Shown here: one piece after another, positions 14,654-51,835 of the stretch | Numbering within the stretch: the first letter of the stretch is position 1 | Layout of the letters: every line of letters starts with the position of its first letter | Assembly (NCBI GenBank): GCA_026397315.1 | Contig: JAPLVC010000001.1 | Coordinates: forward strand, 1 to 64,000 | DNA from: Candidatus Aenigmatarchaeota archaeon | GTDB lineage: Archaea; Aenigmatarchaeota; Aenigmatarchaeia; QMZP01; QMZT01 | Length of the DNA: 64,000 nt | Direction: 5' to 3' | Translations under genes and position numbers: made by a program | The notes under the pieces: generated by a model | Databases searched by the model: none | The model's input: only the letters and a program-made list of their open reading frames with translations | Told to the model about the DNA's origin: nothing

Positions 14654-15142
14654 TTATTTCTTCCTGAAGGGCACGAGCTCGATTTTCGTATGTTTCAGTA
14701 TCTCGATGCCTTCATCATCGGGGTAAATCTCGACGTATACGATCTTCGCTATCCCTGAGTTGGCTATCATCTTGGCGCATATCTTGCACGGCTTCGCGTT
14801 GACATACATGGTAGCTCCGTCCATCCTGAGCGGGTCGCCGCGGATTATCGCGTTCTGCTCGGCATGGACGCCCCTGCATACTTCATGGCGCGTCCCGGAC
14901 GGGATTTTCAATTCGTCACGTAAGCAGCCGATCTCAAGGCAGTGCGGCAGGCCGCGTGGCGCGCCGTTGAAGCCGGTCGAGACTATTATGTTGTCTTTGA
15001 CTATGACCGCGCCGATGTTCCTGCGGAGGCATGTGGAACGCTTGCCCACCTGCTCGACGATGTTCATCCAGTATTCGTCCCAAGTCGGGCGGCTCGTTCG
15101 CGCCTCATGTTTTTTTGCTTCCATGGAATTCGCCTGAGTCAT
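14654..15142 (-). CDS. dCMP deaminase (ComEB-type cytidine/deoxycytidylate deaminase)
   Basis: A 162-residue zinc deaminase. The zinc site is HAEQNAI plus PCKICAKMI, and the substrate region VSTGFNGAPRGLPHC is typical of deoxycytidylate deaminase. It would turn dCMP into dUMP for thymidylate synthesis. An N-terminal extension of about 18 residues precedes the domain. The ATG at 15142 follows a CTTAATATATT box by about 25 bases with no Shine-Dalgarno, which supports this start and a leaderless mRNA. Confidence 0.88.
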   Translation of the reverse strand: MTQANSMEAKKHEARTSRPTWDEYWMNIVEQVGKRSTCLRRNIGAVIVKDNIIVSTGFNGAPRGLPHCLEIGCLRDELKIPSGTRHEVCRGVHAEQNAIIRGDPLRMDGATMYVNAKPCKICAKMIANSGIAKIVYVEIYPDDEGIEILKHTKIELVPFRKK

Positions 15143-50142: not shown

Positions 50143-50282
50143 TGCGGGAGCAGGGATTCGAACCCTGGAAGGCACTAAGCCACTGGGTATCTAATCATAG
50201 AGGCCAAGCCTCTCTTCGGGCTAGATTTCGGACAAAGCCGTGAACCTTAGCCCAGCCCCGTTGACCGCTTGGGTACCCCCGC
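50143..50282 (-). tRNA. tRNA-Leu with 56-base intron, apparent anticodon AAG
   Basis: Minus-strand class II tRNA: acceptor GCGGGGG/CTCCCGC with A73, a long variable arm (GGC-TTAGT-GCC) and T arm CAGGG-TTCGAAT-CCCTG. The anticodon stem is CTGGG/CCCAG. A canonical bulge-helix-bulge is visible: the central helix CTAA/TTAG is flanked by the bulges GGT and ATA and an inner TCA/TGA helix. This places the intron (50189-50244) between positions 37 and 38. Splicing gives the loop CTAAGGA, hence anticodon AAG. The intron contains the hairpin AGAGGC-TTG-GCCTCT. CCA is not encoded. Confidence 0.88.
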
Positions 50283-50381
50283 GTGCTTTGATTTTTTACT
50301 CTTTGCTAAAGTTTATAAGCTTTAAAGTTTTTATATCCTTAATTGCTTTAATTATAGTTATTATTTAATAAAGGTGATATT

Positions 50382-51161
50382 TTGAAGATAAAAATCCTCA
50401 GCAAGAAAGGTGAAAACCTGAAGTTCGTCCTTGAAGGGGCGACTCCCGCATTCGCGAATTCGATGCGCAGGATAATGATAGCTGAAGTCCCTAACCTCAC
50501 GATAGACACGGTCGAGTTCCACGACAACACGTCCGCGCTGTTCGACGAGATAGTCGCGCACAGGCTCGGCATGATTCCCCTCGAGTTTGACCCGGAAAAG
50601 TTCAACATGCAGAACGACTGCAAGTGTGACGGCAAAGGCTGTCCGTCCTGCCAGGTGTTCTTCGCGCTTGAAAAGACCGGACCGGCGATGGCATACTCTT
50701 CTGACCTGAAATCTTCCAACAAGAGTGTCAAGCCCACATCACCGGATTTCCCGATAGTCAAGCTGCTCAAGGAACAGCACATCAAGGTCGAGGCGACCGC
50801 GAGGCTCGGCACGGGCAGGGAGCACTCGAAGTTCCAGACCTCCAACGCGACCTACACTTATGTTATTTCCGTGGAATGCTCAAAGACAGACGACGCGAAG
50901 AGGATAGTCAACGCATGCCCCAAGAACATTCTCGAAGTCAAGGGCACGAAAGTCGTCCTGGCAGACCCATACGAGTGCAACGAGTGCAAGGCCTGCGAAG
51001 AGGCGAGCGGCGGGGACGTGAAGGTCGTAGGCGACCCGAGCAAGTTCGTCTTCACCGTCGAGAGCATTTCCGGCCTCGACCCCGAATACATAGTCGGGAA
51101 GGCCGCAGAGATACTTGAAGGGAAAGCCAAGGAATTCAAGGATTTGCTGAAGGATGTTTAA
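50382..51161 (+). CDS. rpoD: DNA-directed RNA polymerase subunit D
   Basis: A 259-residue archaeal Rpo3/RpoD, the alpha/Rpb3-like subunit that starts polymerase assembly with subunit L. The N terminus (FVLEGATPAFANSMRRIM) is the alpha-motif dimerisation region. An inserted ferredoxin-like domain (about 165-215) has CP followed by CNECKAC, enough cysteines for an Fe-S cluster; a further CKCDGKGCPSC lies near residue 85. The start codon is TTG at 50382, supported by AAGGTGAT 3 bases upstream. It overlaps the next small gene by 8 bases. Confidence 0.94.
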   Translation: MKIKILSKKGENLKFVLEGATPAFANSMRRIMIAEVPNLTIDTVEFHDNTSALFDEIVAHRLGMIPLEFDPEKFNMQNDCKCDGKGCPSCQVFFALEKTGPAMAYSSDLKSSNKSVKPTSPDFPIVKLLKEQHIKVEATARLGTGREHSKFQTSNATYTYVISVECSKTDDAKRIVNACPKNILEVKGTKVVLADPYECNECKACEEASGGDVKVVGDPSKFVFTVESISGLDPEYIVGKAAEILEGKAKEFKDLLKDV

Positions 51162-51694: not shown

Positions 51695-51703
51695 TTGCAT
51701 TTT

Positions 51704-51827
51704 AGCCCCGTAGTCTAGTGGCCAAGGATCCCAGGCTTTGGATTCACGAAGTCCAAAACTTCGAGCAGGTTTCGCCTGCGGTGAGAGAAGAAACCTGGTG
51801 ACGGCGGTTCGAATCCGCCCGGGGCTA
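51704..51827 (+). tRNA. tRNA-Gln (TTG) with 51-base intron
   Basis: Acceptor AGCCCCG/CGGGGCT with A73, T arm GGCGG-TTCGAAT-CCGCC and anticodon stem CCAGG/CCTGG. The intron (51742-51792) lies between positions 37 and 38. The exon bases CTTT can pair with GAAG (one G-T pair), flanked by the bulges GGA and AAA, a relaxed bulge-helix-bulge. Splicing gives CTTTGGA, anticodon TTG. CCA is not encoded. Confidence 0.9.
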
Positions 51828-51835
51828 TTCGCTTT

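Follow-up and report, generated by a model that had tools for sequence, protein, structure and literature searches.

A conserved tRNA-Leu gene with an AAG anticodon in an order of Aenigmatarchaeota, and its likely role in reading CUU and CUC

Introduction

Archaeal tRNAs are described as doing without adenosine at the first anticodon position. A review of more than 50 species, from phyla that do not include Aenigmatarchaeota, finds all ANN anticodons missing in archaea and records no known archaeal ADAT specific for A34 (PMC8007984), and a 2024 paper likewise reports A34 tRNA genes to be absent in archaea (PMC11066159). The tRNAscan-SE 2.0 work lists one odd tRNA-Arg(ACG) in Methanobrevibacter ruminantium (PMC8450103). 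In bacteria, the tRNA-Leu(IAG) of Lactobacillales reads CUU and CUC equally in vitro (PMC13249217). We found no description of A34 tRNA-Leu in Aenigmatarchaeota in the open-licence literature; other papers or the tRNA databases may already mention it.

Here we describe a tRNA-Leu gene in the first 64,000 nucleotides (the window) of contig JAPLVC010000001.1 from a Candidatus Aenigmatarchaeota archaeon. A sequence-only reading had proposed an AAG anticodon formed by splicing of an intron, and had remarked that archaea almost never have A34. That remark is true of the literature (PMC8007984, PMC11066159) and false for the present lineage.

Results

The tRNA-Leu(AAG) gene occupies 50143..50282 on the minus strand, with its 5' end at 50282 and the discriminator A73 given by the complement of T at 50143, as placed by ARAGORN in intron mode, a covariance model and the sequence itself; CCA is not encoded. 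The 5' exon (tRNA positions 1–37) lies at 50245..50282, followed by a 56-nt intron at the canonical 37/38 position (50189..50244) and a 3' exon (positions 38–73; 50143..50188), all on the minus strand. The anticodon A34 A35 G36 is at 50246..50248, with A34 at 50248. The earlier reading had thus delimited the gene exactly and misplaced the anticodon, at 50247–50249 instead of 50248–50246 on the minus strand. Predicted splicing converts the 140-nt transcript into an 84-nt class II tRNA. A TATA-like box, CTTATAAA, lies at 50312..50319 (minus strand), its centre some 33 nt upstream of where the mature tRNA begins; judged by archaeal promoter spacing, it is likely to be the promoter.

All stems of the cloverleaf are present, namely an acceptor stem (GCGGGGG/CTCCCGC), a D stem (CCC/GGG), a fully paired anticodon stem (CTGGG/CCCAG, 5/5) carrying the spliced loop CTAAGGA, and a T stem (CAGGG/CCCTG), together with a long class II variable arm (GGC-TTAGT-GCC); we saw no broken stems or lost conserved bases of the kind that mark pseudogenes. 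The tip of the variable arm is TTAGT, in which T-A is invariant and G nearly so among 14 aligned genes. In Pyrococcus horikoshii the archaeal LeuRS uses A-G of the variable-arm tip, and these two bases are present here.

The splice sites are fixed by a full bulge-helix-bulge (BHB) motif of the archaeal type, with a 4-bp central helix flanked by two 3-nt bulges that contain the cuts. CTAA (50250–50247) pairs with TTAG (50194–50191) at all four positions, the bulges are GG^T and AT^A, and an inner helix, TCA (50243–50241) with TGA (50197–50195), extends the central helix by three of three pairs; the CTAA/TTAG helix, both bulges and the loop were as the sequence-only reading had described them. 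In G001, a genome of the same family, the gene lacks an intron and shares the D arm, the anticodon stem and the loop (CTGGG-CTAAGGA-CCCAG), which confirms the predicted splice sites. Alternative splice sites with another base at position 34 were sought, and every choice that yields a 7-base loop retains A34. ARAGORN run without introns misses the gene because of the intron; run with an intron model, it reports tRNA-Leu(aag) at c[50143,50282] with a 56-nt intron. A whole-genome scan with a leucine covariance model, built including this same sequence, recovers the gene at E = 5.7e-22.

A splicing endonuclease is encoded in the same genome, as a 398-aa frame with two PF01974 matches (G000:C1:34631-35107; L264, L265). 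The frame is of the fused or two-unit type, which might suit a broad intron repertoire. Many loci in this genome and its relatives (e.g. L036, L058, L141, L195, L205) have non-canonical tRNA introns, which lie in the D arm, at 30/31, in the variable arm or in the T loop. A single gene often has two or three of them, and standard tRNA finders therefore miss or misname such genes. A tRNA-Stop(tta) that ARAGORN called at 51703–51828 on the plus strand is a splice-site artefact; read from its BHB (CTTT/GAAG), the gene is tRNA-Gln(TTG) and its intron is 51 nt long. Further Stop and Pyl calls in the genome (L002, L012) may be similar artefacts.

We searched for the gene in other genomes with a 5'-half pattern carrying AAG, run on 245 genomes, which matched close relatives and gave nothing in most other sampled archaea. 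Introns at 30/31 break an uninterrupted pattern, which alone therefore undercounted A34, and we added a 3' pattern and read single genes. Within the order, which belongs to Aenigmatarchaeota (DPANN), A34 tRNA-Leu was found in 23 of 41 genomes, including eight of nine in the archaeon's own family and all six of family f5. Outside the order it occurs in four genomes of family f10 in the same class and in Huberarchaeum, making 28 genomes overall. By name, the carriers in the scan of named genomes are mostly Candidatus Aenigmatarchaeota; the other labels are one MAG each of Pacearchaeota, Micrarchaeota and Nanohalarchaeota, one "archaeon", and Huberarchaeum crystalense. Matches in Planococcus and Rhodobacterales contigs (L129, L131) have no tRNA fold and were set aside as chance. 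GAG genes were detected in four of the 41 genomes (G017, G021, G028, G032), never alongside AAG, and neither gene was detected in 14. As the MAGs are incomplete, a GAG tRNA concealed by several introns may have escaped detection in any one genome. An apparent GAG gene in the A34 genome G033 is a chance match inside coding sequence.

The divergent neighbour of the tRNA gene is a 259-codon frame starting with TTG (50382..51161, plus strand), which we take to be rpoD, for RNA polymerase subunit D. This gene adjoins tRNA-Leu(AAG) in 13 genomes (G000, G001, G003, G004, G005, G007, G009, G012, G014, G016, G018, G020 and G022); the stretches read from G006, G027 and G034 did not show it, and it is absent from the surroundings of all 12 GAG loci examined. 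The pairing recurs in a Pacearchaeota-labelled MAG (L126, JAFCGA010000009.1), where tRNA-Leu(AAG) contains a 13-nt intron and the adjoining rpoD is 43% identical to that of the window; either transfer, shared ancestry or mis-binning would account for this.

Most AAG loops have C32...A38, as do most UAG genes (CTTAGGA), and the GAG loop in G017 and G032 is TTGAGGG. The body of the AAG gene in the window's genome is 0.83–0.92 identical to UAG bodies and 0.78 to GAG. Because both loop and body are nearer to UAG than to GAG, the AAG gene probably derives from a copy of UAG in which U34 became A34, and not from GAG altered in place, and it would then have replaced GAG; given the shortness of tRNAs and their homogenisation within genomes, such an origin is no more than probable.

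Besides AAG, the leucine tRNAs of the genome, listed as the sequence-only reading had advised, are UAA (C6:49.5 kb), CAA (C7:151.8 kb) and a combined UAG/CAG gene (C5:48.6 kb). No GAG tRNA-Leu was found in the genome, and AAG is the sole dedicated CUU/CUC reader detected. In about 31,000 codons CUC is used 742 times and CUU 483 times; with CUC this abundant and AAG the only CUY tRNA found, the AAG tRNA must read C, and so common a CUC would fit inosine better than plain adenosine. Measured against other four-fold boxes, CUC has a mean log-odds of -0.54 in A34 genomes and -0.22 in GAG genomes (one-sided p=0.04, 8 A34 versus 6 GAG genomes, kinship ignored), a modest depletion and a weak sign that C may be read less well by A34 than by G34.

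The combined UAG/CAG gene (G000:C5:48565-48757; L003, L065) has two tandem alternative anticodon exons. A donor, CTAG^AATACC, is followed by the acceptors GGTATGGCCAA^G-TTTAGG (UAG) and GGTATGGCTAA^G-TTCAGG (CAG), and ATACC and GGCT can each pair with both of these duplicated 3' acceptors. At the shared 37/38 acceptor, TGAA pairs fully with TTCA, and with TTTA through one G-U. This layout is conserved in seven genomes of the family (G000, G001, G003, G005, G006, G007, G008; the tandem-exon loci are L003, L065, L148, L154, L201, L202, L203 and L207). Base changes within it mostly keep pairing, as in G005, where ATGCC faces GGCAT and GGTGT, and there are some mismatches in G003, G006 and G008. 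G002, G019, G032 and G034 (L034, L037, L049/L209, L183) have a different layout, in which the duplicated exon is longer. In the genomes of either layout we saw neither a UAG nor a CAG gene standing alone; such genes are present in G012, G014, G017, G018, G020, G022 and G028. The arrangement suggests that a single pre-tRNA yields both isoacceptors by alternative splicing in cis. Among the cases covered by the review consulted (PMC4033280), the closest is Caldivirga, where pieces of split tRNAs are swapped, but in trans. The tandem-exon gene may be as striking as the A34 gene itself.

We considered whether A34 is converted to inosine by a TadA-like enzyme, a bacterial and eukaryotic IAG strategy that an archaeon could have acquired, and made the TadA search suggested by the earlier reading. 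The genome encodes two PF00383 proteins. That at 14654–15142 in the window is dCMP-deaminase-like and was rejected as TadA, its best matches being ComEB and an anti-phage dCTP deaminase model. The other, a TadA/guanine-deaminase-like protein of 163 aa at a contig end (G000:C5:771-1262; L031), has HAE and PCPMC motifs and matches the PDB TadA 1wwr at E=1.3e-20, but guanine deaminase matches it just as closely, and its 72.9 bits against the NCBIfam TadA model fall below the cut-off of 150; it is sporadic in the order and likely to be a nucleobase deaminase. Three other genomes of the order, G024, G032 and G035, have relatives of this protein, but in none of the three was an A34 gene detected (G032 has GAG), and no relative was found in the other A34 genomes. 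Moreover, 12 of the 23 A34 genomes contain no PF00383 protein (E<=0.01), among them G003, G005, G007 and G013, each 89–92% complete, and the matches in the remainder are mostly dCMP- or cytidine-deaminase-like. Since the TadA-like protein does not co-occur with A34 and 12 of the order's 23 carriers have no PF00383 protein, formation of inosine by a TadA-type enzyme is not a general explanation and appears improbable, being left open for the window's own genome only; base modification of this type, one of the options raised from the sequence, thus went unsupported. Inosine, or another modification at position 34, made by an archaeal enzyme of a different kind, possibly related to the m1I57 deaminase, is a considerably stronger contender, although we rate it below even chances. 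The heavy use of CUC with AAG as the only CUY tRNA found speaks for it, as do the missing TadA-type genes in carriers and the precedent that archaea deaminate A57, by an enzyme that to our knowledge is not yet identified. Set against this are the lack of a candidate gene and the modest CUC depletion, which suggests that C is read worse than it would be by G34.

Two further explanations would remove the A34 tRNA altogether. The anticodon hangs on one base in a draft genome, which speaks for a sequencing or assembly error in a GAG or UAG gene; but A34 recurs in 28 genomes that were assembled independently in many cases, with several intronless genes among them, which excludes such an error as its source and leaves it next to no probability, and at the level of the gene supports the option of a real A34 tRNA. 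The gene could otherwise be a decaying or non-coding tRNA-like sequence, with CUY codons read by another, undetected tRNA. Multi-intron tRNAs are hard to find in this group and a GAG gene could hide, but the stems are intact, A73 and the variable-arm tip are kept, the rpoD locus is conserved and GAG was found in no A34 carrier; we regard decay as very unlikely.

Discussion

The conserved A34 leucine gene is very probably genuine and vertically inherited, and would have replaced tRNA-Leu(GAG) in much of the order. The tRNA splicing endonuclease would remove the intron at the BHB, and LeuRS would charge the tRNA through the variable arm and A73, so that the change of anticodon would leave its identity unaffected. 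The tRNA would then be the main reader of CUU and CUC. With TadA absent, position 34 is somewhat likelier to be read as adenosine, which would pair more weakly with C and perhaps be helped by the UAG tRNA, than to be deaminated by an unrecognised enzyme. On the genomes compared, we think it probable that CUU and CUC are read only by an A34-encoded tRNA without TadA, with either unmodified adenosine reading a C-ending codon that is in common use or inosine made by a new archaeal deaminase unrelated to TadA.

The archaeal rule of no ANN anticodons is then not universal, since families of one order share a conserved exception. These archaea offer a setting in nature in which A34 would decode a C-ending codon without TadA, the A34 carriers point to a possible new tRNA deaminase, and the lineage provides a clear case of anticodon replacement, GAG by AAG.

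The closest functional counterpart is the tRNA-Leu(IAG) of Lactobacillales (PMC13249217), which is also encoded with AAG and reads CUU and CUC in place of GAG; there, however, TadA makes the inosine, whereas most carriers described here have no TadA-like protein, and the present tRNA has an archaeal body and a BHB intron. It shares its codons, class II body and leucine identity features with archaeal tRNA-Leu(GAG), but differs in having A34 and CTAAGGA instead of G34 and the TTGAGGG of the order's examples, and in its genomic neighbourhood. Mollicutes use unmodified A34 tRNAs without TadA (PMC3711424), albeit in the arginine CGN box of bacteria with reduced genomes rather than for leucine in archaea. 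The tRNA-Arg(ACG) of M. ruminantium (PMC8450103) is likewise an archaeal gene with an A34 anticodon, yet it is a lone, odd gene that scores best as tRNA-Trp and is absent from the closest relatives, whereas tRNA-Leu(AAG) is conserved and an otherwise normal tRNA.
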